NCBI GenBank assembly: GCA_902787825.1
Contig: CADAHS010000013.1
Location: 1-53,356, forward strand
DNA length: 53,356 nucleotides
Reading direction: 5' to 3'
From: an uncultured Ruminococcus sp.
Lineage (GTDB): Bacteria > Bacillota > Clostridia > Oscillospirales > Ruminococcaceae
Both the position numbers and the translations under genes were made by a program. How positions within the stretch are numbered: position 1 is the stretch's first letter; each line of letters opens with the position of its first letter. The notes beneath the pieces were generated by a model. The model ran no database searches. It was not told the DNA's origin and saw only the letters and a program-made list of their open reading frames with translations. Of this stretch, positions 25,996 to 50,388 are shown one piece after another.

Positions 25996-26166
25996 ATTGA
26001 GAAAAGCTCTCTTGAAAAGAATTATCTCCGAACTCTCTCGGGACTCTTACTCATTTTTCGTTACAGGGGACCATTAGTTTTTTAAGTCCCCTGTGGCGAA
26101 AAATCAATAAAAGGTTTCTGAAAAGGGTTTGGGGAAAACTCTTCTCGAAAAGAGTTTTCCCCAATA
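25996..26166 (-). repeat. Mosaic hairpin element, copy a
   Basis: Read on the minus strand it starts TTATTGGGGAAAACTCTTTT and contains TTCAGAAACCTTTTATTGATT, a core palindrome (26053-26104; arms CAGGGGAC/GTCCCCTG inside ATTTTTCG/CGAAAAAT), then GAGAGAGTTCGGAGATAATT and CTTTTCAAGAGAGC. A second hairpin (26129-26164) directly follows the minus-strand gene and should terminate it. Related copies are at 33213, 36320 and 50223. Confidence 0.75.
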
Positions 26167-26180
26167 AAACGTCGATGTTA

Positions 26181-27449
26181 TTACAGCCTTGCATTTGCAA
26201 GCATAAGCTTTATGCGGTTTTCCTGGTTTACCTTTGTTGCACCCGGGTCATAGTCGATAGCAACGATGTTCGCGTTCGGGTACGCCTTCTTGATTACACG
26301 CGCACTGCCCTTTGCAACGATGTGGTTCGGCAGGCAGCCAAACGGCTGGGTGCAGATGATGTTCTCTGTGCCTGTTTCGGCAAGCGCAGCCATTTCTGCG
26401 GTGATAAGCCAGCCCTCGCCCATCTTTACGCCCTGGTGGATGTACTTGTCGGCGCACTTGCGCAGATGCTCAAAATCGTGCGGCGGCTGGAAAACTCCAT
26501 GCTCCTCAATGACCTTTATCTGCTGCTTCTGGAACTTGTAAAGGATATCGTATCCAATAGTGTACAGCACTGTTGACTTGTCAAATATGCCGTACAGCAG
26601 CCTATCGTTTATCGGGTCAGAGGCGCAGTAAAGCACAAAGTCAAGCAGACCCGGGACATTCGGCTCGCAGCCCTCCTCAAGCAGAAACTCGTTGAGGTGG
26701 TTGTTTGCAAGCGGTGAGTATTTTACATATATCTCGCCGACTATGCCGACCTTAGGCTTTTTCTCACTTGTTCTTTCAAGCGCCGCAAAGTCACGCAGCA
26801 TAGCCTTGTAGATGCGCTTTGTGTGGGTGTAGCCTGTCTTGGTGTCAAACAGCTTGCCCATTCTGTGCTGCCAGCGTGCGAGGAGTCTGTCAGTTGAACC
26901 TTCAACGACCTCGTAGGGCTTGCACTGGTTGTAAAGCAGCATCAGCATATCGCCGTAAAGCACAGCATAGATAAGCCGCAAAGCGATAGCCGGAGTCATT
27001 GGAAAAGCCGGATTCTTTTCAAGTCCGCTGAAGTTGAGCGACAGCACAGGCACCTGTGGGAACTGACTTGAAACAGCCTTTCTTATAAGGTGTATATAGT
27101 TTGATGCACGGCAGCCGCCGCCTGTCTGGGACATTATCAATGCAGTCTTATTAAGATCGTACTTTCCGCTTTTGAGAGCGTCCATAAACTGTCCGATAAC
27201 GATAAGAGCAGGGTAGCAGGTGTCGTTGTGGGTGTTTTTCAGTCCCTCGTCGATGACATTTCGTGAGGAGTTTGTGAGCAGCTCCATCTTGTAGCCATAC
27301 TTCTCGTAGATCTTGATTATCAGCTTGAAATGGATAGGAAGCATATCCGGCACAAGTATCGTGTAGTCCTTTTTCATATCCTCGGTGAAAAAGGTCTTAT
27401 GCACTCTTTTTGAAGGTTCAGGCTTAGCCTGCTTATTTTTATCCGGCAT
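26181..27449 (-). CDS. 2-hydroxyglutaryl-CoA dehydratase D-component-like protein
   Basis: The 422-aa protein starts at ATG 27449, eight nucleotides after AAGGAGG; an upstream ATG at 27473 lacks this spacing. It resembles the C-terminal HgdB-type part of the large activase proteins. Conserved Cys stand in THNDTCYPALIVIGQ, SQTGGGCRASNYI and CTQPFGCLPNHI and are candidates for a [4Fe-4S] or double-cubane cluster. It overlaps the activase gene by 11 nt, implying coupled synthesis. The substrate is unknown. Confidence 0.8.
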   Translation of the reverse strand: MPDKNKQAKPEPSKRVHKTFFTEDMKKDYTILVPDMLPIHFKLIIKIYEKYGYKMELLTNSSRNVIDEGLKNTHNDTCYPALIVIGQFMDALKSGKYDLNKTALIMSQTGGGCRASNYIHLIRKAVSSQFPQVPVLSLNFSGLEKNPAFPMTPAIALRLIYAVLYGDMLMLLYNQCKPYEVVEGSTDRLLARWQHRMGKLFDTKTGYTHTKRIYKAMLRDFAALERTSEKKPKVGIVGEIYVKYSPLANNHLNEFLLEEGCEPNVPGLLDFVLYCASDPINDRLLYGIFDKSTVLYTIGYDILYKFQKQQIKVIEEHGVFQPPHDFEHLRKCADKYIHQGVKMGEGWLITAEMAALAETGTENIICTQPFGCLPNHIVAKGSARVIKKAYPNANIVAIDYDPGATKVNQENRIKLMLANARL

Positions 27450-30399
27450 TTTTGCTTTCCTCCTTTTCTTCAAGAGCAGCTGCCAGAGAACGCAGACGTA
27501 TCTTTGCTGCGCCGAGATTTGTTATCTCGTCTATTTTGAGCTGCGTGTAAAGCTTGCCCTTTTCTTCAAGAATAGCTCTTACCTCGTCTGTGGTGACAGC
27601 GTCAATGCCGCAGCCGAAGGAAACCAGCTGTACAAGCTGCATATCTTCGTTTTCACAGACATACTCCGCAGCTCTGTAAAGGCGTGAATGATATGTCCAC
27701 TGGTTCAGAACATCTACCGACGGAGTATCAACAAGCCCCGAAACACTGTCCTCTGTAACGACCGCAAAGCCAAGCGAAGCAATGAGCTTGTGAATACCGT
27801 GGTTTATCTCCGGGTCGATATGGTAAGGTCTGCCTGCCACAACGATTATCTTCTGACCCTTGCTGCGTGCATCTGCGATTATCTCACGAGCTTTTTTCTC
27901 GATGTTCCTTCTGTATCTGAGCTGTGCCGTGTACGCCTTATTCAGTACACCAAGCACCTGCTTTTCGGTTATGTGATACCTTGCAAGGCACTTTGCTACA
28001 ACGTGTGCAACGTGTTTTTTCATATTGATGTCAAGATACGGAGCGATGAAATTCCTGCTTGTCAGCTTGTCGTTGTTTGCTTTCAGAAGCTCGGGGTAGT
28101 ATGCAACGACAGGGCAGTTGTAGTGATTGTCCGAGCCGCCCTCGTCGATATTGTAGCTCATGCATGGGTAGAAGATAAAGTCAACTCCCTTGTCAAGCAG
28201 GCTCTCGATATGTCCGTGGCAGAGCTTTGCAGGGTAGCATACTGTGTCTGAAGCGATAGTCTGCTGTCCCTTGTAGTAGGTATCTCTTGTTGATTCCTCC
28301 GACAGCACGACCTCAAAGCCAAGCTCTGTGAACAATGTGTGGAAATATGGCATAAGGTCGTAGAAGGAAAGCGCAAGCGGGAAGCCGACCCTTGCCTTTG
28401 GCTTACCCTTTGGTTTGGTAAGCTCATAGTCCCTGATGAGCTTATACTTATATTCGATCATATTTTCCGCACGGTCGGTGACTTTTATTCCTGCACCCTT
28501 TTCGCAGCGGTTGCCCGAAACAAAGCGGTGACCATCGTTGAATTTGATTATCGTCAGATTGCAGTGTGCGCCGCAGCCCCTGCACTGTACAGCGGTAGAG
28601 TTGTAAGCAAATTCTCTGAGCTGTTCAAGCGTGAGTATCTTTGAGGTGCATTTCTGGTTCCTCGTTTTTTCCATTGCGAACAAAGCGCAGCCGAAAGCTC
28701 CCATAAGTCCTGCGATCGCAGGTCTGATAACATTTCTGCCAAGCTCTTTTTCAAACGAACGCAGCACAGCGTCGTTGAGGAAAGTTCCTCCCTGAACAAC
28801 TATGTTCTTTCCAAGCTCCTCGATAGTTTTTGCTCTGATAACCTTGTAAACAGCATTTTTGATGATAGATGACGAAAGACCGGCGGAGATATCCTCAACA
28901 GTCGCACCGTCCTTCTGTGCCTGCTTTACAGATGAGTTCATAAATACCGTGCAGCGTGAACCAAGCTCAACAGGGGCTTTTGCGAAAAGACCCAGCCTTG
29001 CGAACTCAGCAATGTCATAGCCCATAGCCTGTGCAAAGGTCTGTATAAAAGAGCCGCAGCCCGATGAGCAGGCTTCGTTGAGCATGATGCTGTCAATAGC
29101 GTTGTTTTTTATCTTAAAGCACTTGATATCCTGTCCGCCGATGTCGATGATGAAATCAACGCTGGGACAGAAGTACGCCGCAGCCTTGTAGTGAGCCACA
29201 GTTTCAACTATGCCGAAGTCAACGCCCAGACCCGCACGGATAAGATCCTCGCCGTAGCCTGTTACAGCGGAAGCCTTGATGTTGAGCTTGTCAGTTGAAA
29301 GATTATAGATCTCCTCAAGCTTTGCCGCAATAATGTCAAGCGGCTGACCCTTGTTGGAGCAGTAGTGCTGATAAAGCAGCTTTCCGTCTGGTGTGATAAG
29401 CACCAGTTTTGTCGTGGTCGAGCCTGCGTCGATGCCGAGGTAAGCGTCACCCTCATATGTGCGTATATCCTCGTATTTAAGGTCAGACTGCCTGTGTCGG
29501 TCAACAAAAGCAGCGTAGTCCTCTCTTGTTTCAAACAGCGGGTCGCCGGTGGTGATGTTATCGGTGGTCTTAGCGTTAGCGATCCGGTCAAGTGTTTCAT
29601 TGATGGTCGCAGCTTCAGCAAGCGTGTGAGCGTGCAGTGCCGCACCGTAAGCCACATAGCAGCTTGATTTTTCGGGCAGTACCGCATGGTCGTCATCAAG
29701 CGAGAGCGTGGTCTTGAACGCCTTTCTCAGCGCACTGAGATATGTAAGCGGTCCGCCGAGGAAAAGCACCTTGCCCTCTATCTTTCTTCCCTGAGCAAGG
29801 CCCGAGACCGTCTGGTCAACGACCGCCTGGAAGATCGATGCGGAGATGTCCTCTTTTTTCGCACCCTGATTGAGCAGCGGCTGAATGTCTGATTTAGCGA
29901 AAACACCGCAGCGTGAAGCGATAGGGTAGGTCTTTGTGCTTTGCAGCGCAAGCTCGTTCATTTCGTCGGGCGTAATGTCCAGAAGGCTTGCCATCTGGTC
30001 GATGAAAGCGCCCGTACCGCCTGCGCATGAGCCGTTCATACGCTGTTCCACACCGCCTGTGAGGAAGATTATCTTAGCGTCCTCACCGCCAAGCTCAACC
30101 ACAACGTCAGCATCGGGATAGGTCTTGTTTACCGCAACGAAAGCCGAGTAGACCTCCTGAACGAAAGCGATGTCGCTTGCCTGAGCGATTCCAAGCCCTG
30201 CCGAGCCTGTGATAGCGATGCGGAACTTGTCGCCGGGGTAAAGATCACGAATGATCCTCAGCTGCTGAGCGACCGTTTCACGCACTCTTGAAAAGTGCCT
30301 TTCGTATTTGTCGTAGACGAAATTGCCGTCATCATCAACGATGACCGTCTTGACGGTGGTCGAGCCTACGTCTATACCTAAGTCGTAAATTCTATACAT
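27439..30399 (-). CDS. Tandem BadF/BcrA-type activase with DUF2229-like C-terminal part
   Basis: The 986-aa protein has two ASKHA ATPase domains: residues 1 to about 280 (DLGIDVGSTTVKT, GGEDAKII, Cys125 in GSCAGGTG, Cys164 in SRCGVF) and about 320-590 (YLGIDAGSTTTKL, DIGGQDIKCF, CSSGCG, SRCTVF). Each keeps the two Cys that bind the activator [4Fe-4S] cluster. Then come CRGCGAHC and a dehydratase-like domain. In the family these are ATP-driven electron donors to difficult reductions. Many relatives are about 1400 aa in one chain; here the last part is the separate gene 26181-27449. The SD is bridged to the ATG by a hairpin. Confidence 0.85.
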   Translation of the reverse strand: MYRIYDLGIDVGSTTVKTVIVDDDGNFVYDKYERHFSRVRETVAQQLRIIRDLYPGDKFRIAITGSAGLGIAQASDIAFVQEVYSAFVAVNKTYPDADVVVELGGEDAKIIFLTGGVEQRMNGSCAGGTGAFIDQMASLLDITPDEMNELALQSTKTYPIASRCGVFAKSDIQPLLNQGAKKEDISASIFQAVVDQTVSGLAQGRKIEGKVLFLGGPLTYLSALRKAFKTTLSLDDDHAVLPEKSSCYVAYGAALHAHTLAEAATINETLDRIANAKTTDNITTGDPLFETREDYAAFVDRHRQSDLKYEDIRTYEGDAYLGIDAGSTTTKLVLITPDGKLLYQHYCSNKGQPLDIIAAKLEEIYNLSTDKLNIKASAVTGYGEDLIRAGLGVDFGIVETVAHYKAAAYFCPSVDFIIDIGGQDIKCFKIKNNAIDSIMLNEACSSGCGSFIQTFAQAMGYDIAEFARLGLFAKAPVELGSRCTVFMNSSVKQAQKDGATVEDISAGLSSSIIKNAVYKVIRAKTIEELGKNIVVQGGTFLNDAVLRSFEKELGRNVIRPAIAGLMGAFGCALFAMEKTRNQKCTSKILTLEQLREFAYNSTAVQCRGCGAHCNLTIIKFNDGHRFVSGNRCEKGAGIKVTDRAENMIEYKYKLIRDYELTKPKGKPKARVGFPLALSFYDLMPYFHTLFTELGFEVVLSEESTRDTYYKGQQTIASDTVCYPAKLCHGHIESLLDKGVDFIFYPCMSYNIDEGGSDNHYNCPVVAYYPELLKANNDKLTSRNFIAPYLDINMKKHVAHVVAKCLARYHITEKQVLGVLNKAYTAQLRYRRNIEKKAREIIADARSKGQKIIVVAGRPYHIDPEINHGIHKLIASLGFAVVTEDSVSGLVDTPSVDVLNQWTYHSRLYRAAEYVCENEDMQLVQLVSFGCGIDAVTTDEVRAILEEKGKLYTQLKIDEITNLGAAKIRLRSLAAALEEKEESKNAG

Positions 30400-30431
30400 A
30401 CTTTTTCCCCGAAAAACCGGGGCACTCCTTT
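30400..30431 (-). promoter_or_regulatory. Hairpin-bridged ribosome-binding site of the activase gene
   Basis: Read on the minus strand: AAAGGAGTG, then the 5-bp hairpin CCCCG-GTTTTT-CGGGG (30422-30407), then 7 nt and ATG (30399). The SD is about 24 nt away unfolded and about 9 nt with the hairpin closed. Confidence 0.55.
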
Positions 30432-30464
30432 CCCTGTTACAGTCAAGTGAACATATACATTAAT

Positions 30465-30493
30465 AGTATAGCATATTTGCTGCAAAAATACAA
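30465..30493 (-). promoter_or_regulatory. Promoter of the activase operon
   Basis: On the minus strand: TTGTAT (30493-30488), a 17-nt spacer, TATACT (30470-30465). Confidence 0.7.
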
Positions 30494-30557
30494 GTGTTTT
30501 TTAGAGGTAAGATATAGGAGGTTTCAAGAGGTAAGAGATCTGACGGCAAATTTGCTA

Positions 30558-30586
30558 TTGCAAAAAACGGGGCGGTGTGGTATAAT
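30558..30586 (+). promoter_or_regulatory. Promoter of the Thr-rich lipoprotein gene
   Basis: TTGCAA, a 17-nt spacer and TATAAT (30581-30586), 37 nt before the ATG. Part of a GAGGTAAGAGA repeat sequence lies just upstream (30528-30538). Confidence 0.7.
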
Positions 30587-30622
30587 GACGAAAGAAAAAT
30601 ACACAGGAATCGGGGCGGTTTC

Positions 30623-31405
30623 ATGAAAAAAAGAATTTTAGCGGCAATACTGTCAATGGCACTTGCGGCGGCGTGTATGACCGCCTGCGGTGAGGACAAC
30701 AAGCAGGAAAAAGACAAAGCGGAAACGACCACGACCACCACAACAAAGGAGAATACAACAGCACACGAAGTCATTGTACCAACTGATCCTGGACAAACGA
30801 CTACCGAAGGCTATTGGCACACGGAGTCCACGACAACAACCACCACGACCTCAAAGACCACAACGACCTCGGGCAATGCAGCGACCGTGAGCTCAAAGAA
30901 GAATACAACAGCACACGAAGTCATTGTACCACCTGGACCCAAAGAAAAGCCCAACGAAAACGGCTATTGGCACACGGAGTCCACCACCAAAGCCACCACA
31001 AAGGCGACGACTACCACAACCAAAGCGACAACCAAGAAAACCACCACAGCGGCAAATAAAAAGATAACAGCGGCAGACCTCAAAGCCGCCGCCGAAGCAG
31101 AGCTGGTAAAAATCCAGAGCGTTGCCAAAAAATATGGTTGGACTATAATAAAACATGAAGTAATACGCAACACGAACACGCAATATGGCATCTTTCTCCG
31201 TTTTCATATACCAGTAGACTCTTACGGAGAGAAAGATACGAAAGCGTCAGGCACTATCAAAGCAGAATTGCGAAATGGGACTATCAAAGTCTTTTGGGCC
31301 GAACGGGGCCTCAACGGTGGCGGAGACAACTATGACGACTGCAGTGATTATATGCCCATCGAAAACATAATCATCGGTTTGCAAGAATACGGCATACCAC
31401 AGTAA
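30623..31405 (+). CDS. Thr-rich lipoprotein with duplicated linker
   Basis: The 260-aa protein starts at ATG 30623. Lipoprotein signal 1-21 (MTAC, Cys22). Residues about 35-150 are a Thr/Lys-rich linker containing two copies of [10 protein letters not shown]...GYWHTEST, encoded by DNA copies about 150 bp apart (30751-30830 and 30901-30982). The C-terminal globular domain of about 105 aa ([17 protein letters not shown]...) is not recognised. The linker suggests a surface protein held away from the membrane. The DNA is rich in ACC/ACA runs, so copy number may vary. Confidence 0.75.
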
Positions 31406-31425
31406 ACAACATTTTCAATACAAAA

Positions 31426-31463
31426 AAGAGGTAAGAGAACCAACTCTCTTACCTCTTGTTTTT
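31426..31463 (+). terminator. Terminator made of a GAGGTAAGAGA palindrome
   Basis: The perfect 13-bp arms AAGAGGTAAGAGA/TCTCTTACCTCTT with loop ACCAAC are followed by GTTTTT. The arm sequence is that of the short palindromic repeat family found elsewhere in the window. Confidence 0.88.
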
Positions 31464-31471
31464 GAAAGCCC

Positions 31472-31500
31472 TTGCAAATCCCACGCTTTTGTGTTATACT
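31472..31500 (+). promoter_or_regulatory. Promoter of fhs
   Basis: TTGCAA, a 17-nt spacer and TATACT, 38 nt before the fhs ATG. Confidence 0.75.
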
Positions 31501-31538
31501 TTATACGTTGGAATTTTCACCGAAAGGATATGATTGAA

Positions 31539-33209
31539 ATGCTGTCAGATATCGAGATCGCAAAGCAGGCGAAAATGCTCAAAATAGGCGAGATCGCCGC
31601 TAACCTCGGAATAAGCGAGGAGGACTTTGAGCCCTATGGTCACTATAAGGCAAAGCTCTCCGAGAGCCTTTACGAAAAAACAAAGGACAAGCCCGACGGC
31701 AAGCTGATACTTGTCACCGCTATCAACCCTACCCCTGCGGGCGAGGGAAAAACGACTATCTCCGTTGGTCTTGCAGAGTCTATGGCGAAGATAGGCAAAA
31801 AGGCTATCCTTGCACTGCGTGAGCCATCGCTGGGTCCTGTGTTCGGCATCAAGGGCGGTGCCGCAGGCGGCGGATATGCACAGGTAGTGCCTATGGAGGA
31901 CATCAACCTCCACTTCACAGGCGATATGCACGCTATCACCGCAGCCAACAACCTGCTTTGTGCGTTGATAGACAACTCCATTCACCAGGGTAACCCGCTT
32001 CGCCTTGATGAAAGACGTATACTTTTTAAAAGATGTATGGATATGAACGACCGTGCCCTGCGTGAGGTCATCGTCGGACTTGGCGGAAAGATAAACGGCT
32101 TCCCCAGACAGGACGGCTTCCAGATAACCGTTGCCTCCGAGATAATGGCTATCCTTTGCCTTGCAAGCGACCTTGACGACCTCAAAAAGCGTCTTGAAAG
32201 CATACTCGTAGGCTACGACCTCGACGGAAAGGCTGTCTACGCAAAGCAGCTCGGCGGCTGCGGCGCTATGGTCGCTCTGCTCAAAGATGCGCTCAAGCCA
32301 AACCTCGTTCAGACGCTTGAAAACACCCCTGCGATAATGCACGGCGGACCTTTTGCAAATATCGCACACGGCTGCAACTCGGTAAGAGCAACAAAGCTGT
32401 GCCTTAAACTTGCAGACTACACCATCACCGAGGCAGGCTTTGGCTCTGACCTTGGCGCAGAGAAGTTCTTTGACATCAAGTGCCGCTTTGCGGGGCTCAA
32501 GCCAAGCTGTGTTGTGCTCGTTGCAACTATCCGTGCGCTCAAATATAACGGCGGTGTGCCAAAGACCGAGCTTACAAACGAGAACGTCGAGGCTCTGAAA
32601 AAAGGCGTTGTGAACCTGAAAACGCATATCGAGAATATGCATAAGTTCGGTGTGCCCGTTGTTGTGGCTATCAACCGCTTCCATACCGATACAGATGCCG
32701 AGATCGAGGTCATCAAGCAGACCTGCGATGAAATGGGCGTGCAGTATTCGCTTGCTGAGATATTTGCAAAGGGCGGAGAAGGCGGAAAGGATCTTGCGCA
32801 GAAGGTCTGCGATACAATCGACAGCAAGCCGTCAGACTATAAGCCGCTGTATGATGAAAAGCTCCCTATCAAGGAAAAGCTGAATATTCTTGCGACTGAG
32901 ATCTACCGTGCAGACGGCGTTGTTTATACCTCGCAGGCAGAAAAGGCTATCAAGGAGATAACTGATCTTGGCTTTGGCGGAATACCCGTTTGCGTGGCAA
33001 AGACGCAGTATTCGCTGTCTGATGACCCGGCAAAGCTTGGCAAGCCTGAGAACTTTGAGATAACCGTGCGTGATGTAAGGCTTTCAGCCGGCGCAGGCTT
33101 TGTGGTAGCATATACCGGTGATATCATGACTATGCCCGGCCTGCCGAAGCACCCGGCAGCATTTGATATCGACTGCGACAATAAGGGAAATATCTACGGA
33201 CTGTTTTGA
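31539..33209 (+). CDS. fhs: Formate-tetrahydrofolate ligase
   Basis: The 556-aa enzyme makes 10-formyl-THF from formate, THF and ATP. Start ATG 31539 gives the family length and follows AAAGGA by 10 nt. The ATP loop TPAGEGKTT is at residues 65-73, and [20 protein letters not shown] follows at about 95-115. It is monocistronic, with its own promoter and a hairpin element behind it. With metF (41241) it supplies one-carbon units; folD is not in the window. Confidence 0.97.
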
Positions 33210-33212
33210 TAG

Positions 33213-33403
33213 GTTATTGGGGGAAAACTCTTTTGAAGGAAGCCAAAAATGGCTTCGCAAGCGACCGTAAGGTCGCTTATACCCATTTCAGAAACCTCTT
33301 GATTTGAGCATATGGGGATAACCCCCATATGCTCAAATCATACTGAAAGCTCTGAAGAGAGACTGGGAGAAATCTTTTTTCCAGAAAAACTGCCCGCAAC
33401 AAC
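33213..33403 (+). repeat. Mosaic hairpin element, copy b
   Basis: It starts TTATTGGGGGAAAACTCTTTT. Two hairpins follow (AAGCCA/TGGCTT; GCGACC/GGTCGC), then TTTCAGAAACCT and a perfect 18-bp core palindrome (33300-33317/33323-33340, loop ATAAC). The end is CTGAAAGCTCTGAAGAGAG and a T-rich stretch. It is placed right after fhs and probably terminates it. Confidence 0.75.
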
Positions 33404-33440
33404 TTATCACAGCAGCCATATATTCCCCGTGCCTGCGTTG

Positions 33441-33469
33441 TTGACAAACCCTCGTATGAGTGGTATATT
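33441..33469 (+). promoter_or_regulatory. Promoter of the DUF3810-tsaE-tsaB-rpiB operon
   Basis: TTGACA, a 17-nt spacer and TATATT, 42 nt before the ATG at 33511. Confidence 0.8.
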
Positions 33470-33510
33470 TATTAGTGTATTATATTTTCAGAACTTGTTG
33501 GAGAGAGCCT

Positions 33511-34731: not shown

Positions 34732-34741
34732 GGGTGACGAT

Positions 34742-36319: not shown

Positions 36320-36563
36320 TGTTGGGCAGCTGGGGGAAACCCTTTTGGAGAGAGGGTAAGTAACACGTGGTAACGGTTACTCCGTTATCCCCCGAGAATA
36401 TCCTTTGGATATTCTCGCAAGCGACCGCAGGTCGCTTTACCCCTATTCCTAAACCTTTTAATGAAAATCAGGGATATAGGGTCATAACCCTATATCCCTG
36501 ATTTTGACTGAGAGTTCAGGAGGAGAGTTTGAGAGACAGCACTTCCAAGAGAGTCCCACAACA
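36320..36563 (+). repeat. Mosaic hairpin element, copy c
   Basis: It starts TTGTTGGGCAGCTGGGGGAAA. Hairpins AGAATATCC/GGATATTCT and GCGACC/GGTCGC are joined by CGCAA, as in copy b. Then come AAACCTTTTAATG and a perfect 19-bp palindrome (36464-36482/36487-36505), followed by ACTGAGAGTTCAGGAGGAGAG and an end CCCACAACA that mirrors the start. It lies between convergent genes and probably terminates rpiB. Confidence 0.75.
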
Positions 36564-36629
36564 GTATTCCAATAGAATATCCTCAGATGTTCAGCAGCGT
36601 TACCGCTGTTGACAGTGTCATATCATCAA

Positions 36630-36654
36630 AAAGTCCGGGTTTTCCCCGGACTTT
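36630..36654 (-). terminator. Terminator of the minus-strand hydrolase operon
   Basis: AAAGTCCGGG/CCCGGACTTT is a 10-bp stem. Read on the minus strand it is followed by TTGATG. It lies 6 nt past the stop of the gene 36661-37020. Confidence 0.8.
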
Positions 36655-41178: not shown

Positions 41179-41207
41179 TTGATAATTGTGAATTAATGTG
41201 CTATACT
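41179..41207 (+). promoter_or_regulatory. Promoter of metF
   Basis: TTGATA, a 17-nt spacer and TATACT, 34 nt before the ATG. Confidence 0.75.
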
Positions 41208-41240
41208 TGTTTTCAAAGCTTGTTTTAAGGGGTTGGGAAA

Positions 41241-42107: not shown

Positions 42108-42612
42108 TTCTGCCGTATCATTTTGCCGATCGACCGATACAGTAAAATTCTGCCCGGAGATAATCACAGAAATATTTTCGTTGACAGCACGTTTTTGCGT
42201 GCTGTTTTGCTTTTGCGCCGAAACCCTTTTTCGACGATCCGGCGCTGTAACCGAAGGTTACAAAACGGTTACCGGAACTTTTTCGGACAGTTGAAAACTC
42301 TCGCCACGGCATATTTTTTTGTTGAAAAGTCGGTTGAAAATGTTAAAAACACATAGTTTTCAACCAGTGCAGAGGTCATTTCTTCAAATCTTTCAACATC
42401 TGTACGTTTTTTAAGACTTGTAAACGGTTACAGCGTGCAATTTAATATTTTCATATAGTCCGCTTTTTTGTACACAAAACGACGTTTGCCGCACCGAAAT
42501 AATTACAGTCAGATGTTTCGCAAGCTGTTTGTACAGATTGTGCAAAATGCCGCAAATAAGCTTTGAAGGAGCTAAACAAATTGCATAAAACACTGAAAAT
42601 ACCGGGTTTGTA
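42108..42612. other. Long intergenic region with hairpins and a GTTGAAA array
   Basis: ACAGCACG/CGTGCTGT (42184-42205) followed by TTTGCTTTT is a likely metF terminator. GCGCCG/CGGCGC near 42215-42246 and GTAACC/GGTTAC at about 42247-42260 are further hairpins. GTTGAAA occurs five times, in both orientations, at 42290, 42321, 42333, 42357-42364 and 42391-42397; two of these form a 9-bp hairpin. No plausible gene is seen. Confidence 0.5.
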
Positions 42613-42641
42613 TTTACACGGTCAGTAAATTGTGATATTAT
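42613..42641 (+). promoter_or_regulatory. Promoter of the amino-acid-binding lipoprotein
   Basis: TTTACA, a 17-nt spacer and TATTAT, 50 nt before the ATG. Confidence 0.7.
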
Positions 42642-42690
42642 GTAAAAGTGAAAAACGATTATGGAAAATCAAGAAAGGACAGGATAAGAA

Positions 42691-43518
42691 ATGAAAGGTT
42701 TCATAAAAAAGATAGCAAGTATGGCAATGGCAGCTACAATGCTGTTTGCAGTTGGCTGCGGCAGCTCATCAAGCAGCAGCACCGACGCTTCCTCAAACAA
42801 GGACGATTCGCTCCAGAAGGTGATGGACGCAGGCAAGCTCAGACTTGGTCTTGATGCGACATTCAAGCCAATGGGCTACACCGATGAGAATGACAAGATC
42901 GTCGGCTTTGACATCGACCTTGCCGAGGAAGTCTGCAAGAGAATGGGCATCAAGCTCGAACCGGTCGGAGTTGACTGGGACACTAAGGAGCAGGACCTTA
43001 ACGCAGATAAGATCGACTGCATCTGGAACGGACTTTCGATCAGCGATGAGAGAAAAAAGCAGATGCTGATGAGTGAGCCTTATATGAACAACAAAATGGT
43101 GTTCATGGTGAACAAGGACAGCGGCATCAAGTCAAAGGACGACCTCAAGGGCAAGAAGGTAGCCGTTCAAAACGGTTCGACCGCACAGGATACACTCAAG
43201 GGTGCGGACATTTACAGCGACCTGACAGTGACCGAGCTCGGTACGAACGTTGAAGCTATCCAGCAGCTGGAGCTGAAAATGGTGGACGCTGTTTTCCTTG
43301 ACTCTGTGGTCGCAGATTACGAGATAACCTCCACAGGCAAGCCCTATGAAACGCTTACCGATTCGCTTTACGAGGAGCAGTACGCTATCGGCTTCAAGCT
43401 TGGAGCAAACGAGCTTTGCAAGAAGATAGAGGAAACTCTCAGAGAGATGAAAAAGGACGGCAAGACCGAGGAGATCGCAAAGAAGTGGTTCGGCAGCGAC
43501 GTTACCACCATCAAGTAA
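42691..43518 (+). CDS. Amino-acid ABC transporter substrate-binding lipoprotein
   Basis: The 275-aa family-3 binding protein has signal residues 1-22 and lipidated Cys23 (AVGC). A Ser/Thr/Asp linker is followed by the bilobed domain (KLRLGLDATFKPMGYTDEND, VGFDIDLAEEVCKRMGI). Polar amino acid or cystine is the usual ligand class. No permease or ATPase gene is adjacent; it stands alone with its own promoter and terminator. Confidence 0.92.
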   Translation: MKGFIKKIASMAMAATMLFAVGCGSSSSSSTDASSNKDDSLQKVMDAGKLRLGLDATFKPMGYTDENDKIVGFDIDLAEEVCKRMGIKLEPVGVDWDTKEQDLNADKIDCIWNGLSISDERKKQMLMSEPYMNNKMVFMVNKDSGIKSKDDLKGKKVAVQNGSTAQDTLKGADIYSDLTVTELGTNVEAIQQLELKMVDAVFLDSVVADYEITSTGKPYETLTDSLYEEQYAIGFKLGANELCKKIEETLREMKKDGKTEEIAKKWFGSDVTTIK

Positions 43519-43531
43519 TACCTTTTATCAG

Positions 43532-43561
43532 ACTGCCCGATGTGTGTCGGGCAGTTTTTTG
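43532..43561 (+). terminator. Terminator of the amino-acid-binding gene
   Basis: The perfect 9-bp stem ACTGCCCGA/TCGGGCAGT with loop TGTGTG is followed by at least five Ts. Confidence 0.93.
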
Positions 43562-43573
43562 TTTGTACGGCTG

Positions 43574-43602
43574 TTTACAATGAGGCAGGTTTGTGATATA
43601 AT
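43574..43602 (+). promoter_or_regulatory. Promoter of the 43691-47947 gene group
   Basis: TTTACA, a 17-nt spacer and TATAAT (43597-43602), 88 nt before the TTG start. Confidence 0.78.
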
Positions 43603-43690
43603 CATATTACCGATTTTAAGCAAGCTTACATCGGGCTTTATTCCGAGGAGTTTAAAAGCAAATTAAAGTTTCAATAAGAGGTGTGAAAAG

Positions 43691-44053
43691 TTGAACAGCG
43701 ATGTGTTTTCAGACGTGCTGCAGCAGCTTGACCAAAGACCCAATCGGCTTTCGGACATCAGGCTGTGGCTCTTTGTTGCTGTAAATACCGCAAGAGCACT
43801 GATAGACAGCACGGATAAACAGGCACTTGAAAACGCCGTGTTTACCGACTGCAAAAGCGTCAGCGAGATACAGTACGGCTTTGATGTGATACAGGGCAGA
43901 TACGGCAGAAAGTTCCGTTCGTCATCTGATGCACGGTATAACTATCTTTGCTCACTTGTGGCGTTTTTTTCCGACAGGGAGCTGACGCAGGAGGAGATCA
44001 GGCTGACACAGCAGTATAATAAGGTCGATAAATACCTGATTTATGAATTGTGA
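43691..44053 (+). CDS. Small hypothetical protein
   Basis: The 120-aa protein starts at TTG 43691 after AAGAGGTG. It is mostly helical and soluble, with no signal peptide (DVLQQLDQRPNRLSDIRLWLFVAVNTARALI...). I recognise no family. The stop overlaps the upstream frame of the next gene, and the two are probably translated from one mRNA. Confidence 0.7.
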   Translation: MNSDVFSDVLQQLDQRPNRLSDIRLWLFVAVNTARALIDSTDKQALENAVFTDCKSVSEIQYGFDVIQGRYGRKFRSSSDARYNYLCSLVAFFSDRELTQEEIRLTQQYNKVDKYLIYEL

Positions 44054-44073
44054 AACACCGGGAGGAACAGACT

Positions 44074-44781
44074 ATGGCATCTAAAAAGGAGTATCTCGAT
44101 TTCGTGCTGGAACAGCTTTCACAGCTTGACGGCATCACATACAAGGCGATGATGGGGGAGTATATACTGTATTATCAGGACAGGATCTTCGGCGGAGTTT
44201 ACGATGACCGATTGCTCGTCAAGCCCACCGAGTCAGCAAAGAAGCTGATGCCCACAGCTCCGCTTGAGCTTCCCTACGAGGGAGCAAAGCCGATGCTGCT
44301 TGTTGAGGATATCGACAACAGGGAGCTTCTCACACAGCTTGTCCGTCAGATGTACGACGAGCTTCCTCAGCCAAAGAAAAAAAATAATATCAAGGAGATC
44401 GCTATGAAAAAGTGGTATGATGAAGAATACGAATTTACAGTCGAGGTCACAGGATTTCTGAGGGGAAACAAAACCGAGAGATATTGCCGCAACGGCGAGG
44501 AGATCGGCGATAAATATACCTGTACATACGGCTGTCCCGTGAACGAGCAGGGCTATGGCATATGCTCAAAAACTATGATGATGCTGTATCCGCTTATGGA
44601 AGCAGTCCGCAGCGGCGGCGACCTTGAAAATCTCGGCGGCGACAGTAAATATACAAAAACTATCGTTTGCCCCGACGGCTGCGTGATGTTCAGACTGACC
44701 GCAAAGCCGCTTGGCAACGAGAATTTCCACAAGGGCGGTTTCTGGGATTATCCCGATGACCAGCAAGGAGAGAGCTTATGA
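44074..44781 (+). CDS. TfoX N-terminal domain fused to TIGR04076 family domain
   Basis: The 235-aa protein starts at ATG 44074 after GGAGG. Residues 1 to about 105 match TfoX_N (YKAMMGEYILYYQDRIFGGVYDDRLLVK). Residues 111-235 match the Cys-containing TIGR04076 family (VEVTGFLRGNK, CTYGCPVNEQGYGICSK). At the join, an A8 tract (44377-44384) is followed by AAGGAG and ATG 44404, an internal ribosome-binding site and start for the second domain. One extra A would create a TAA stop and two separate genes. The functions of both families are poorly known. Confidence 0.85.
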   Translation: MASKKEYLDFVLEQLSQLDGITYKAMMGEYILYYQDRIFGGVYDDRLLVKPTESAKKLMPTAPLELPYEGAKPMLLVEDIDNRELLTQLVRQMYDELPQPKKKNNIKEIAMKKWYDEEYEFTVEVTGFLRGNKTERYCRNGEEIGDKYTCTYGCPVNEQGYGICSKTMMMLYPLMEAVRSGGDLENLGGDSKYTKTIVCPDGCVMFRLTAKPLGNENFHKGGFWDYPDDQQGESL

Positions 44782-46004
44782 AAATACAGCGTCAGTTTCC
44801 TGCGTTCACAGTATCAAAAAAAGGAGAGCGTGAGGTAAAAAGCGGACACCCGTGGGTGTATGACAACGTGATAACCGCCGCACCCGAAAACTGCGAAAAC
44901 GGCTGCATTGCCGATGTTTTTTCGCAGGGCGGAAAGTACCTCGGCAGCGGTTTTTACAGCGAAAAAAGCAAGATACGCATTCGCCTTTTGTCAAACAATG
45001 CCAACGAGAGCTTTTCAGACAGCTTCTTTGCTCGCCGTGTGCAGTATGCCATAGATTACAGAAATACAGTTATGGGCGACGACTTTTCGGCGTGCAGACT
45101 TATATTCGGCGAGTCCGACGGTCTGTGCGGGCTGACCGTTGACAAGTACGGAGATATCCTCGTTTCGCAGGTGCTTTCTTTCGGAATGGACAGAAAAAAA
45201 GATGTTGTCTATAAAGCTCTGTGCGAAAGCCTTGCAAAACAGGACGTGACTGTCCGTGGAATAATGGAGCGAAATGACGTTGCGATAAGAGAGCTTGAAG
45301 GGCTTGAACAGTACAAGGGCTGGTACGAGGCGGACTTTCTTGCGCAGCCGCCGTCACCCGTGACCGAGATAACAGAGAACGGGATAGTGTATACCGTTGA
45401 TGTCGAAAACGGTCAGAAAACAGGATTTTTCCTCGATCAGAAGTATAACCGCCTTGCTGTTTCAAAAATAGCAAAGGGCAAAAAAGTGCTTGACTGCTTC
45501 ACCCATACAGGTTCCTTTGCGCTCAACGCTGCAAAGGGCGGTGCAGCGCACGTTACAGCGGTGGACGTTTCACAGTTCGCCGTCGATACCGCAAGAGAGA
45601 ATGCTGTTAAAAACGGACTTGACAAGACGATGGAATTTATCTGCGAGGACGTATTTGAGCTGCTTCCAAGGCTTGAAAAACAGGGCGCAGACTATGATAT
45701 GATAATCCTTGACCCGCCTGCCTTTACCAAAAACAGAAAGACCGTGGACAGCGCTGCAAGAGGATATAAAGAGATAAACTACCGTGCAATGAAGCTGCTG
45801 CCCAGAGGCGGTTATCTTGCGACCTGCTCGTGCTCGCACTTTATGGATAATGAACTGTTTGTAAAAATGCTGATGTCAGCGGCCTCCGATGCAGGAGTGA
45901 GCCTGAAAATGATAGAGGCACGCAAGCAGAGTCCCGATCACCCGATAATGCTCAACGTTCCCGAGACGGACTATCTGAAATTCTATCTTTTCCAGATCGT
46001 GTAG
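44778..46004 (+). CDS. RlmI/RlmCD-type class I SAM-dependent rRNA methyltransferase
   Basis: The 408-aa protein has an N-terminal PUA-like domain (VSKKGEREVKSGHPWVYDN), a linker domain and a Rossmann methyltransferase: VLDCFTHTGSFALNAAKGGA (SAM loop), VTAVDVS, and catalytic-region LDPPAFTKN. The family methylates cytosine C5 in 23S rRNA (RlmI); the exact base is not certain here. It overlaps the previous gene by 4 nt. Confidence 0.92.
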   Translation: MKIQRQFPAFTVSKKGEREVKSGHPWVYDNVITAAPENCENGCIADVFSQGGKYLGSGFYSEKSKIRIRLLSNNANESFSDSFFARRVQYAIDYRNTVMGDDFSACRLIFGESDGLCGLTVDKYGDILVSQVLSFGMDRKKDVVYKALCESLAKQDVTVRGIMERNDVAIRELEGLEQYKGWYEADFLAQPPSPVTEITENGIVYTVDVENGQKTGFFLDQKYNRLAVSKIAKGKKVLDCFTHTGSFALNAAKGGAAHVTAVDVSQFAVDTARENAVKNGLDKTMEFICEDVFELLPRLEKQGADYDMIILDPPAFTKNRKTVDSAARGYKEINYRAMKLLPRGGYLATCSCSHFMDNELFVKMLMSAASDAGVSLKMIEARKQSPDHPIMLNVPETDYLKFYLFQIV

Positions 46005-46008
46005 GCGT

Positions 46009-47157
46009 ATGAAGAAAGGGGTATATGTTATGGTGTTCGTATTTTTTGCAGGGATCGTGTTCACACTTGCAGTGGGCGTGCTCAGCTGTCTTGACTGGTG
46101 GAAAAAGCACGTTGCATTATCTCAGGTGTTTTTCTGGGGGATAACAGTGATCTTGCTTGTAAATATGTTCTACACTGTGTTCAATATAAAAAGCATCACC
46201 ATCAAGCCGCTGAAAGAGGTAATGATATTTCTTTCGGCAATAACCTTTATCGTACTGATATATACATCGGTCATAATGCTGATAAAATACATACTCACAT
46301 TCATTCTCGGCGGATTTATGAAGCCGACAAATCCGTTTTTCAGATTTATCAGGGAAAAAAACATAACCCTGCCCGTGCTGCTTGGCATCACAACGATCAT
46401 CGGGATAATCGGCTATATCCATATGAATACCATCACAGTCAACGAGTATGAGATAAACGTCCCCAAAGCGTCAAAGAACAAAAGCATTACCGCCGCAGTC
46501 ATTGCGGATACACATATCGGCATCTCAGCCCACAAGGATACCATAGATACTATCATTGACAGGATAAATGAGATGGACCCCGATGTCGTTTTGCTGCTGG
46601 GCGACATCTTTGATGAGAATACCTCGACCGATGAGATGGAGTATTTCAGTGAAAAATTCAAGCAGGTCAGAAGCAGGTACGGCTCATACTTTGTCTACGG
46701 CAACCACGAGAATATGGCGGACGATGACGCTGCACGCTATCTTAAAGATGCAGGCATAAAACTGCTTGAGGACGACAAGGCGGTCATCGCAGGTGATATC
46801 ACTCTTGTGGGAATGCTGTCCGAATACGACTCGTCAGGCGATCCGGCAGATCGTATCATCAAGCAGAAAAAGGTCGATATGACAAAGCCGGTCATCGTCC
46901 TGAAACACGAGCCTCTTGGCATACAGCAGATCGCTGATGCAGGAGCAGATGTTTCAATGCATGGTCATACCCACGGCGAGCAGTTCCCGCTGACGTATCT
47001 GCCGTTTTCGTTTCTCAATGATATGATGTGCGGCACAAAGCAGTTCGGGGAAATGACTGCATTCACTACGCAGGGCGCAGGCGGCTGGGGCTTTCATTTC
47101 AAGCTGCCCGCATCATGTGAGGTCGCTAAGGTAACGATCAATTTTGGAGTTAAATAA
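46009..47157 (+). CDS. Membrane-anchored metallophosphoesterase, second paralog
   Basis: The 382-aa protein has four membrane helices in residues 1-150, then the calcineurin-like domain: ADTHIG (about 167), GDIFDE (about 198), GNHEN (about 231; Asp of the usual GNHD is Glu), HEPLG and GHTHGE (about 319). It has the same architecture as the gene at 19724. Its last eight codons and stop are part of a tandem duplication that continues downstream. Confidence 0.85.
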   Translation: MKKGVYVMVFVFFAGIVFTLAVGVLSCLDWWKKHVALSQVFFWGITVILLVNMFYTVFNIKSITIKPLKEVMIFLSAITFIVLIYTSVIMLIKYILTFILGGFMKPTNPFFRFIREKNITLPVLLGITTIIGIIGYIHMNTITVNEYEINVPKASKNKSITAAVIADTHIGISAHKDTIDTIIDRINEMDPDVVLLLGDIFDENTSTDEMEYFSEKFKQVRSRYGSYFVYGNHENMADDDAARYLKDAGIKLLEDDKAVIAGDITLVGMLSEYDSSGDPADRIIKQKKVDMTKPVIVLKHEPLGIQQIADAGADVSMHGHTHGEQFPLTYLPFSFLNDMMCGTKQFGEMTAFTTQGAGGWGFHFKLPASCEVAKVTINFGVK

Positions 47158-47466
47158 GCCCTGAGAGGTAAGATGTAAGAAATAAGAGGTAAGAATACTG
47201 ACGCAGCAGTCTGAGAAGCAAATAACACAAACTCGGTATCAATACTTCTTGTCTCTTGCTTCTGAAAAGCGAAGCACTCTTGCTTCCAGAGGCTGAATTG
47301 TAACGATCAATTTTGGAGTTAAATAAGCCCTGAGAGGTAATATGTAAGAAATAAGAGGTAAGAATACTGACGCAGCAGTCTGAGAAGCAAATAACACAAA
47401 CTCGGTATTAATACTTCTTGCCTCTTGCCTCTGAAAAGCGAAGCACTCTTGCTTCCAGAGGCTGAA
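47131..47466. repeat. Tandem duplication, two 169-bp units
   Basis: Unit 1 is 47131-47299 and unit 2 is 47300-47466, nearly identical. Each begins with GTAACGATCAATTTTGGAGT, the 3' end of the metallophosphoesterase gene, and contains a short palindromic element (GAGGTAAGA...CTTCTTG(T/C)CTCTTGC, CTGAAAAGCGAAGCACTC). The second unit carries a non-coding relic of the gene end. Confidence 0.93.
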
Positions 47467-47476
47467 AGGAGATAAT

Positions 47477-47947
47477 ATGGCACACATTGACAATCCGAGA
47501 GAGGAGTTTTCAAACAGCACAGGAATAGGTATTCCACTGTTTCTGATGCTGATGTTTTATATTGCAAATATCGCAATGGTCGTTTTTGCACTGCTTGCAT
47601 TCTTCAGCTTCAGAACAGATTATAAAAATCAGCAGGAGCTTATGTTCTCTGTGGTGAAAAACGAAAGCTCCCCTCTGTCAGAAGCGATAGTCCAAAAAGA
47701 CGGAACGTATGCTGTTGAATACGAAAAGCTCGGTGAGGAATATGAAAAATATTTCAACAAAGACGAGCTTGAAAAAATGAGGTCTGACGCAAAGCAGACA
47801 AAGCAGGAGTTTATGGTCACTGTGCTTGAGAATAAAGATGCATACTCTCCGATAAGAGCAAAGACCACCACCCTTGGGATCATCAGTGTCGGGTTGCTTG
47901 TGCTTTTGCTGTTCAGATCCCTGCGGCAGATAAGAGCAATGTACTGA
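47477..47947 (+). CDS. Hypothetical membrane protein
   Basis: The 156-aa protein starts at ATG 47477 after AAAGGAG. One helix is at about 17-42 and another at about 132-148, with an acidic helical region of about 90 aa between. No family recognised. It lies directly behind the tandem duplication and has a hairpin terminator at 48028. Confidence 0.75.
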   Translation: MAHIDNPREEFSNSTGIGIPLFLMLMFYIANIAMVVFALLAFFSFRTDYKNQQELMFSVVKNESSPLSEAIVQKDGTYAVEYEKLGEEYEKYFNKDELEKMRSDAKQTKQEFMVTVLENKDAYSPIRAKTTTLGIISVGLLVLLLFRSLRQIRAMY

Positions 47948-47990
47948 TAGAGGTAAGATGCAAGAGGTAAGAGGTAAGAAGTAAGAGGCA
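47944..47990. repeat. GAGGTAAGA-type repeats
   Basis: Four consecutive units of the type GAGGTAAGATGCAA, GAGGTAAGAGGTAAGAAGTAAGAGGC follow the stop codon. They belong to the short palindromic family but lack the second arm. Confidence 0.6.
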
Positions 47991-48027
47991 TATTCGGGAG
48001 AACCCTCTTTGTGAAAATAAATCATTT

Positions 48028-48059
48028 GCCGCATTCTCGGAGTTCGAGAGTGCGGCTTT
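48028..48059 (+). terminator. Hairpin terminator after the gene 47477-47947
   Basis: GCCGCATTCTCG pairs with CGAGAGTGCGGC over 12 bp (one G-U), loop GAGTT, then TTT. Flanking GGGAGAACCCTCTTTGTG and CCGGGAGAAAGAGAACGC resemble the edges of the mosaic hairpin elements. Confidence 0.65.
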
Positions 48060-48130
48060 AAAGTTTCCGGGAGAAAGAGAACGCTTTATGTGAAAAAAAG
48101 ATGAAATATTTGACTCGCAGTGCGCAAATC

Positions 48131-48159
48131 TTGACAATATATGCAGTTTTGTATATAAT
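48131..48159 (+). promoter_or_regulatory. Promoter of the DUF975 gene
   Basis: TTGACA, a 17-nt spacer and TATAAT (48154-48159), 61 nt before the ATG. Confidence 0.88.
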
Positions 48160-48219
48160 AACTATGTATGGTTTGATTATCAGGGGACGAACAATAACAC
48201 AGATAAATTGAGGGGTAAG

Positions 48220-49452
48220 ATGACTGATTTTGTTTTTAACAGGAAACAACTGAAGAAAAAAGCCCGCACTGCGTTGAAGCTGAACTACTTCGCCTGTATT
48301 GCGGTCTGCTTCATTATGGTCTTTCTTGCTGGGGAATACAGCACAACAGTCCAGGGCATCTCTATGTGGGATAAAACTCATGTGGCAAATCTCAAGTATA
48401 CGCCCCAGCAAAAAAAAGAGATCATCCAGGATATGGTCGATAACCGCCTTACGCCGGAACAGGCGAACGAGAAATGGGAGATCAACAATGTCGATGCAGT
48501 TAAGTCATGGCTGAAATCCTATGAGGAATTCGGTCTTGAAGGACTTGAATCAAAAGAGCTCACCTTTTTCGGAACGACCGGCGACGGTTCCAATATCAAT
48601 ACGATCCTTGAATCTTTCTCGATCACAAGATCCGCAAAGGAAAGGCTCGATGTGCTGACCAGCGACAGCTTCTTTGAAAAGCTTCCAGACCAGGCGATAC
48701 TTTATTTTGACGGGCTGACAAGGAGCAAATCGTATAAATTTACGTTTGTGGCTTCTATCGTTTCAGCGTTCAGAGAGGATAAATCCTTCTCCCAGACGTG
48801 GGATGTTTTTGCAAACTTCCTCGTTTCGCTTTTAAGAGCGGTGTTCATCACCAATCTTATGATAGTCTGCGAGTGCAGATTCTTTATGGAAAGCAGGACC
48901 TACCATAAGACCAAGGTCGGAAGAATGGGATTTTTGTTCAGAGAAAGAACACTGCACCCCATAAAGACAATGCTTATCAAGGATCTGTACCTCACACTGT
49001 GGACATTCACGATAGCAGGCTTTTTCATCAAGCAGTATTCGTATGCAATGGTGCCGTGTATCCTCGCAGAGAACCCGAATATGCCGACTAAAAAGGCAAT
49101 AACTCTTTCCCGGAAAATGATGGACGGCTATAAGTGGGAGCTTTTCAAGATAGACTGCACTATGTTCGGCTGGACATTGCTTTCAATGCTCACCGTCGGA
49201 CTTGTAGGCATCTTCTTTGCAAATCCGTACAGAGCGACCATTCATTCTGAGGCGTATATCGTCCTCAGACGCAAAGCCAAGCTTGAGGGTATGCAGTATG
49301 CCGATGAGCTTAACGACAGGTTCATTGATCTTGACCTTCTTGAGCAGGAGATCGACCAGCAGGACGGGCAGAAGATGTTCAGCATCAGAATACCCGATAA
49401 TGCTGACGAAAAGTACGATCATGATGAAATAGCAAAGGAGGTAACGGTGTGA
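48220..49452 (+). CDS. DUF975 family membrane protein
   Basis: The 410-aa protein starts at ATG 48220 after AGGGG. One membrane helix at about 25-45, a soluble region of about 130 aa rich in charged residues (an insertion relative to short DUF975 proteins), then four helices from about 180. The signature YSYAMVPCILAENPNMPTKK, SRKMMDGYKWELFKID and FANPYRATIHSEAY is diagnostic. Function unknown. It overlaps the next gene by 4 nt. Confidence 0.85.
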   Translation: MTDFVFNRKQLKKKARTALKLNYFACIAVCFIMVFLAGEYSTTVQGISMWDKTHVANLKYTPQQKKEIIQDMVDNRLTPEQANEKWEINNVDAVKSWLKSYEEFGLEGLESKELTFFGTTGDGSNINTILESFSITRSAKERLDVLTSDSFFEKLPDQAILYFDGLTRSKSYKFTFVASIVSAFREDKSFSQTWDVFANFLVSLLRAVFITNLMIVCECRFFMESRTYHKTKVGRMGFLFRERTLHPIKTMLIKDLYLTLWTFTIAGFFIKQYSYAMVPCILAENPNMPTKKAITLSRKMMDGYKWELFKIDCTMFGWTLLSMLTVGLVGIFFANPYRATIHSEAYIVLRRKAKLEGMQYADELNDRFIDLDLLEQEIDQQDGQKMFSIRIPDNADEKYDHDEIAKEVTV

Positions 49453-50156
49453 CTGAAAAAGTTTACAGCATCGAAGATCTCCGGGAGCTGGGCGAGTACC
49501 CCGGAGTTGCCTACGAGCAGAAATATCATTTCAGCAGATTTACAAACAAGGTCGTCAAGCACCGTGACTATCACCGCACATATACGCTGATAGGCTATAT
49601 CCTGCTGTTCTTTTCATTTTCCATCGGCGGTTGGATATGGGAGGTCGGGATCCACGTCATTGAGGACGGCGTATTCATAAACCGAGGCACGATGCACGGA
49701 CCGTGGCTGCCTATCTATGGTTTCGGCGGTACGGTTGCATTGCTCGTTTTCAGAAAACACGTCGATAACCAGGTCGGCGTATTTGTCGGCTCTGTCGCAA
49801 TGTGTGCGACCGCAGAGTATATCACAAGTGTATTGATCGAAAAGATCCAGCATCTTAAATACTGGGACTATAACGGCTATTTTCTCAACATCAACGGCAG
49901 AATATGCTTTGAGGGTATCGTCGTGTTCGGCTTTGCCTGCATTTTCGTGATCTATATTCTGTCACCGTTTCTGGATACGATATATAAAAAAGTGTCCAAA
50001 AAGCTCCTTGTGATCGCAGCGATAGTCCTGTGCGTATCTTTCGCAGTGGATTTCGTATATTCGCTCAATGTCCCAAACCAGGGCAAGGGTATCACTGATT
50101 ACAGCGTAAGCATAGTCCAACCAACTGAACCCACAACGATCAGGATAGCGAAGTAG
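49449..50156 (+). CDS. CmpB-type putative ABC transporter permease (PF06541)
   Basis: The 235-aa protein starts at GTG 49449 within the previous stop (GTGA), so it is translationally coupled. About five membrane helices; the family motif GWIWEV and FINRGTMHGPWLPIYGFGG near residues 60-95 are clear. Despite the name no transport partner is near. Its pairing with DUF975 suggests a joint envelope function, which is inference. Confidence 0.85.
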   Translation: MTEKVYSIEDLRELGEYPGVAYEQKYHFSRFTNKVVKHRDYHRTYTLIGYILLFFSFSIGGWIWEVGIHVIEDGVFINRGTMHGPWLPIYGFGGTVALLVFRKHVDNQVGVFVGSVAMCATAEYITSVLIEKIQHLKYWDYNGYFLNINGRICFEGIVVFGFACIFVIYILSPFLDTIYKKVSKKLLVIAAIVLCVSFAVDFVYSLNVPNQGKGITDYSVSIVQPTEPTTIRIAK

Positions 50157-50222
50157 CCTCAAATGCTAAAGTTAGTTCCGATCTATATATCAATCATGAT
50201 CTAATGCCGTGTATTCGGTAAA

Positions 50223-50388
50223 TTGTTGGGGGTTCTCGTTTGAAAGTATCTTTTTCAGATCTCACTATGAGCCTTAGTCAGAAACGGCGTTATGGAGAAA
50301 TTCTCCATAACGCCGTTTTCCATTAAAAGTTTTATGGGTGGGGATTGGGGAGATACCATTTTTCAAAAGAGTCCTTCCCAACAATTAC
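50223..50388 (+). repeat. Mosaic hairpin element, copy d
   Basis: It starts TTGTTGGGGG and ends TCCTTCCCAACAA, so the ends are inverted. The core palindrome near 50282-50299/50300-50317 is GGCGTTATGGAGAA/TTCTCCATAACGCC. It lies between convergent genes and probably terminates both. Its last bases overlap the upp stop codon region. Confidence 0.7.

Follow-up and report, generated by a model that had tools for sequence, protein, structure and literature searches.

How can a long stem stay paired while its sequence changes? This old question is raised by four hairpin elements in a contig of an uncultured Ruminococcus sp., analyzed here as one stretch of 53,356 nucleotides (the window). The first-pass annotation described the four as sharing flanks and connectors around unrelated but perfectly paired cores, and suggested that they might be mobile or recombining terminators with exchangeable stems. 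We built a covariance model, R1, from 16 copies of the host's own genome (G000), the four window elements included. The elements and their parts are as follows, all bit scores being those of R1 on its own training sequences:

25992-26170, minus strand: element 1, short form, after the gene at 26181-27473 (minus strand); 152.9 bits
26131-26162: left hairpin of element 1
26052-26105: core of element 1
33212-33404, plus strand: element 2, after the FTHFS stop; 109.1 bits
33238-33256: module GGAAGCC..GGCTTC of element 2
33259-33278: module AAGCGACC..GGTCGCTT of element 2
33300-33340: core of element 2
36324-36569, plus strand: element 3, with a long left arm, between the rpiB stop and the native terminator; 118.0 bits
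36359-36381, 36394-36416 and 36419-36437: modules of element 3
36464-36505: core of element 3
50220-50387, minus strand: element 4, directly after the UPRTase stop; 98.5 bits on the minus strand versus 94.4 on the plus strand
50282-50318: core of element 4

R1 placed all four elements in one repeat family, which is no independent test as all four are in the training set. The repeat itself is genuine: GGGGAAAACYCTTTT occurs 25 times in the own genome and its reversed control not at all. Folding energies of all four elements lay 6.7-10.9 standard deviations below those of 100 dinucleotide shuffles on both strands. The profile search of genome and relatives proposed in the first-pass annotation gave 113 R1 matches in the own genome (E≤0.1, both strands), corresponding to 68 distinct places, training copies included, because quasi-palindromic copies often match on both strands. 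R1 was present in 20 of 29 Ruminococcus genomes, the own genome included (E≤0.001). At the FTHFS loci of other species, one of 80 carried an R1 copy (E≤0.01), and this one came from Ruminococcus sp. YE71; the best named relatives of the FTHFS protein of the window are uncultured Ruminococcus and R. albus. The four elements are members of a large family of small mobile DNAs of a Ruminococcus group with interchangeable hairpin modules; they stand far beyond chance, yet only a corner of the family is on view in the window. The connectors proved less general than first described: CGCAAGCGACC...GGTCGC is shared by elements 2 and 3 only, and CAGAAACCTTTT is exact in element 1 only.

No Rfam family reached its gathering threshold on the elements searched; the best match in the window was nqrA-II (31.4 bits versus a gathering threshold of 55), and 20 loci gave chiefly miRNA hairpin models, all below gathering. 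One 506-base unit had no match among plasmids and phages, and two exact matches to the pattern of the terminal inverted repeats (TIRs) described below in the viral_contigs set were rejected as chance, both lying within long reading frames. The family was not met in the literature on Ruminococcus among the matches listed. Elsewhere in the window, two T-box leaders scored above gathering (51222-51452, 112.2 bits; 23788-24014, 93.2 bits), and an S10-Clostridia ribosomal protein leader was found at 3138-3218 (48.6 bits).

Element 4 lies on the minus strand, not in the orientation first called: the minus strand scores higher even though R1 was trained on the plus strand. All four elements therefore directly follow an open reading frame (ORF) on their own strand, and three of the four lie between convergent ORFs. 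Among 99 copies, whose neighbors were called by script with a longest-ORF heuristic, the upstream ORF pointed at the element in 68 of 97; where both neighbors were called (82 copies), the ORF pairs were convergent in 29, co-directional in 46 and divergent in 7. Much of this setting can be put down to elements keeping clear of promoters, an argument made before for the repeats of pneumococci (PMC3049150).

Placement directly after genes, often between convergent genes, would suit transcription terminators. Nevertheless, a terminator scan (GC-containing hairpin plus T-run, by its own criteria) found no site inside any of the four elements, and the native terminators lie outside:

36630-36654, plus strand: native intrinsic terminator of rpiB, found by the terminator scan, beyond element 3
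25883-25916, plus strand: terminator-like hairpin downstream of a RidA-like gene, outside element 1

A hairpin like the first follows rpiB in six of the eight relatives read. Moreover, most cores carry T-runs on the 5' side and A-runs on the 3' side, the reverse of a terminator. The left hairpin does resemble an ordinary terminator hairpin at the FTHFS site of two relatives (L286, 4662-4815, G018; L288, 4452-4539, G008), where GGGGGAAA(A)CTCTTTT... with a T-rich tail follows the gene and is much like the left hairpin of the element; it could be what is left of an element, or else the left arm could have come from it. Taken together, the proposal that the elements are mobile or recombining terminators is very improbable.

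By following copies outward, we reached TIRs of a first type, TAAATCAGAATTTRCCG...CGGYAAATTCTGATTTA. A second type, TAAGTGCTGTACTTATACAGAAG and TAAGKGYWGTACYTATAYAGAAG, is found on other copies that share the inner module, and the ends of family units include TAAATCAGAATTT and TAAGTGCTGTAC. The first pattern, at up to 2 mismatches, had 118 matches in G000, 30 in G022 and 42 in G006, against 7, 3 and 4 for the respective controls; the second, at up to 3 mismatches, had 33 matches in G000 (control 0). Eight full units with first-type TIRs, 419-733 bp long, were read, and seven have TA at both ends. Their interior consists of one or two R1 modules (~140-275 bp), in some units two of them face to face, together with other palindromic modules; R1 matches six of the eight, one weakly, and L305 and L315 are without it. 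Units with second-type TIRs are shorter (~160-250 bp). Judging from their length, the units would hold no coding gene. Because intact copies end in the inverted repeats TAAATCAGAATTTRCCG or TAAGTGCTGTACTTATACAGAAG with TA, they look like non-autonomous transposons (MITEs). The window elements have no recognizable intact TIRs and are therefore probably old. One of the units without an R1 match, of 733 bp (L305, 614-1346), has ends whose like recur near contig ends of G000 (L306-L309). Among the TIR matches listed for G000, 35 lie at most 420 bases from the first base of a contig, so that the family seems to break assemblies.

An IS630-type transposase, the one family searched (PF13358), was above cut-off in none of the 29 genomes, with two sub-threshold matches in G009 and G020, and no facing TIR pair 0.6-5 kb apart was seen by eye among the 42 matches in G006. 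MITEs can outlive their autonomous partner; these results therefore lower the MITE claim without sinking it. A large insert between FTHFS and a DUF3810 gene in G022 (L285, 4405-8412) was rejected as an autonomous element, since its ORFs by eye form a gene cassette that looks like a response regulator, an ABC transporter, a flavin-type reductase and a histidine kinase.

As for MITEs, sites with and without the element were seen, at rpiB, FTHFS and lysS. At rpiB, all eight relatives read lack an R1 copy in the interval from the stop to the terminator or the next gene, and G016 has an R1 copy beyond the terminator. At the FTHFS site, R1 gave no hit in L285, L287, L289, L290, L291, L294 and L295, and weak hits in L286 and L288, of 31.0 and 20.5 bits. 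With the dispersed copies and TA-ended TIRs, these orthologous sites without an element support the suggestion that the elements are mobile.

The lysS site lies at the end of the window:

52981-53356, plus strand: further family unit with 5' TIR TAAATCAGAATTT, whose TAA is the stop of the lysS-like gene; it runs off the contig end

The visible part of this unit has no R1 match. We scanned 162 TIR-like matches, chance ones from other species included, for overlap with stop codons. In 11 flanks (9 sites, two orthologous pairs), that of the lysS-like gene at 52981 among them, a long upstream frame, defined by a stop-free run of at least 90 codons, ends in frame at the TAA of the TIR itself, with homology used for lysS only; these are what is left of 18 such cases after removal of four from other species and three doubtful ones. 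At the lysS stop, the exact 13-base TIR start was found in G000, G018 and G008, a start with one mismatch in G016 and G021, and a diverged start plus R1 in G006; G022, G027 and G028 are empty, so that six of nine species are occupied. TA is also present at the lysS stop TIR; the empty relatives are other species with a different downstream gene. Downstream of the stop in species without the lysS element (L330-L332), there is an extra reading frame, full in L332, which is missing in G006 and G021, and thus insertion and gene loss may be linked at this site.

R1 was found in the lysS units of G016, G018 and G006 and not in those of G000, G008 and G021, the contig ending inside the element in four of the six species. 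The units of G016 and G018 share 81 of the 96 bases that can be seen in both, and identity in the remaining 14 pairs is 4-64% over the first 96 or 140 bases in a rough alignment, indicating at least five make-ups among the six units. An edge of the lysS tree sets the six occupied species apart, with support of only 0.37. Possibly, a single old insertion was followed by exchange of the interior. Alternatively, given this support, the make-ups could reflect repeated insertion at one TA. More generally, the elements may be independent insertions in which cores mark mobile subfamilies, and differing cores at orthologous sites would be repeat insertions at preferred TAs near stops. Subfamilies with recurrent cores (GTAGAATAGGGC, GGCACTTAGGGC and CGCCATTGGGG), several sites where the TIR sits squarely on a stop codon or immediately behind one, and the separate events near rpiB in G000 and G016 are in line with such a history.

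Closely related copies argue against it. The elements of L187 and L256, as well as those of L215, L217 and L126, are near-identical save for one arm or a few bases. In L187 and L256, aligned element positions are 100% identical between flanks that are 87% identical, and one has a short left arm where the other has a long, four-hairpin arm (108 gap columns). Similarly, the elements of L235 and L237 are 96.7-100% identical versus 79-87% for their flanks. For both pairs, gaps were ignored and the core cut was rough; correlations of 0.09-0.19 from the same rough cut were set aside. The first-pass annotation held that point mutation alone does not explain the cores, and here orthologous sites were divided. 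Cores differ by point changes only at L215/L217/L126 (a C-G to A-T change), L222/L205 (CC/AA versus CC/GG), L252/L269 and, save for the loop, L250/L204. Cores of L235 or L237 against L255 do not follow this pattern, nor do W1, L221 and L265, which differ throughout. The idea of recombining elements with exchangeable parts was supported at some orthologous sites, by the arms of L187/L256 and by the lysS make-ups.

We then set aside 11 of 115 copies, since ten came from divergent genomes and one lacked a core, and compared the other 104. These comprise 82 distinct cores, of which 30 are perfect, and most of the 82 stems have a common outline. Single linkage put 42 distinct cores in one cluster and left 11 alone. 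The cores of the window, earlier held to be mutually unrelated, fall into three clusters: elements 2 and 3 belong together in a cluster of 10 cores, element 1 is apart in the cluster of 42, and element 4 stands alone. Nor is pairing perfect throughout, as the stem of element 1 has two C.A appositions. Intermediates were found within clusters (CGCC/GGCG, CGCC/AACG and CGTT/AACG), and two-sided changes in 19 of 26 consensus pairs. Among 74 short copies, the two halves of the core covary strongly (r=0.89), and r was 0.73 for one side of the left stem against the other. By contrast, distances of left arm and core were weakly coupled in the 74 short copies (r=0.12-0.24, versus 0.45-0.55 for odd/even controls within segments); other segment pairs gave 0.28-0.45, with 0.39 for the halves of the right part, so that the contrast with the controls is modest.

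Loops on identical 8-bp inner stems were inverted in 5 of 30 equal-length pairs, compared with 29 of 852 pairs between stems (one-sided p=0.003). The five are short loops: TGAA/TTCA, TTTTAT/ATAAAA, GTT/AAC and, twice, TTT/AAA. This count leaves out the ten divergent copies; an earlier count of 7 of 32 had two from L227, whose orientation is ambiguous. Loop inversion is described as a footprint of template switching, which in hairpins of rRNA and microRNA genes produces multi-base compensatory change together with loop inversion (PMC8794818). The weak coupling of left arm and core and the inverted loops suggest that template switching matches the arms and recombination exchanges the modules. 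Both findings speak against independent insertions, which leave the inverted loops unexplained; we regard that history as unlikely.

Instead, the explanation we consider probable, if by no wide measure, is that the elements are non-autonomous, TA-ended modular mobile repeats in which template switching during replication keeps the arms matched and from which modules pass to other copies by exchange. Units would be inserted at TA by a transposase supplied in trans. Most of the surviving units would lie on a stop codon or immediately behind one, because the TIR restores TAA with its first bases and insertions are tolerated at 3' ends. On reaching a quasi-palindrome, a replication fork could switch template and copy one arm from the other, an event that could also flip the hairpin loop, and recombination among copies would swap modules. 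Stem sequence would thereby change while pairing persists. Dispersal and module exchange are well supported; the matching of arms by template switching is what we infer from a few events. Besides the absence of PF13358 above cut-off, several findings stand against this explanation: inverted loops are rare, TTT/AAA makes up two of the five, and the copies are related by descent. In addition, symmetric template switching does not predict the one-sided mispairs of the cores.

On the gene-sense strand, non-Watson-Crick appositions in the 82 distinct cores were A.C in 64 cases, G.T in 7 and other in 7; when each position in a cluster (17 clusters) was scored a single time, A.C outnumbered G.T 19 to 6 (p=0.015). 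An A.C on one strand is a G.U on the other. The module might therefore be a selected structured RNA, in which the strand opposite the upstream gene folds as transcript or single-stranded DNA and changes by compensatory wobble steps. Read on the minus strand, the series CGCC/GGCG, CGCC/AACG, CGTT/AACG would be one such path of wobble steps. At some orthologous sites, copies are 97-100% identical across species between flanks at 79-87%, and this greater conservation could mean a selected function. However, left-arm hairpins lean in the opposite direction (G.T 24, A.C 10, other 41), and counts are even once the lower stem is included (A.C 135, G.T 131), the core-only cut having been chosen after these even counts were seen. 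The clusters are not a phylogeny, copies that have lost parts of the core persist (L020, L022 and L013), and the lack of an Rfam family at gathering on the elements searched also counts against this reading. A folded minus strand is hinted at, and selection on a structured RNA as the main explanation seems to us improbable.

By analogy, and with no BOX sequence compared, the family seems closest in kind to the BOX elements of Streptococcus pneumoniae and S. suis. These are modular composite repeats with variable inner modules and predicted stem-loops, which are over-represented between convergent genes, can supply the stop of the preceding gene and are nested in other repeats (PMC3049150). The Ruminococcus repeats share modularity, stem-loops, a place between convergent genes and the supply of stop codons with BOX as pictured there (PMC3049150). 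They differ from that picture in host, in stems that covary, in some inverted loops and in one module borne by two TIR types. RUP, Correia/NEMIS and ERIC are described as small, mostly intergenic MITEs with TIRs, TA termini and highly paired transcripts (PMC2229807, PMC2759123). The present repeats are likewise small, TIR-bounded, TA-ended and mostly intergenic; unlike RUP, Correia/NEMIS and ERIC as given there, they are mosaics of several palindromic modules for which no relative or transposase was found. TIMEs are mosaic non-autonomous derivatives of Tn3 with 38-bp Tn3 inverted repeats and duplications of 5-6 bp (PMC4133298). They too are non-autonomous TIR elements with varying cores, whereas the Ruminococcus termini are TA-ended. 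Template switching, known from rRNA and microRNA genes in the account cited above, would in the present case act on mobile repeats of which each genome has many copies. In our view, the kind is known from TA-ended MITEs and modular BOX elements, and what is new is that one module occurs with two types of TIR, that its stems covary and can be exchanged, and that some loops are inverted.

A bolder idea, which we offer tentatively and think doubtful, is that of fixed sockets, in which the TIR at a stop codon is kept through speciation, the hairpin interior is repeatedly swapped by recombination, and hairpins are rewritten or flipped by template switching. If true, there would be dozens of sites in the genus at which the structure of the 3' UTR is replaced cassette by cassette, with a minus strand that is possibly folded as RNA or single-stranded DNA. 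With dozens of copies in each genome, at sites that are orthologous between related species, the question of stem pairing would become testable in natural DNA, and the 3' UTRs of gut Ruminococcus may be reshaped by modular repeats seated at stop codons.
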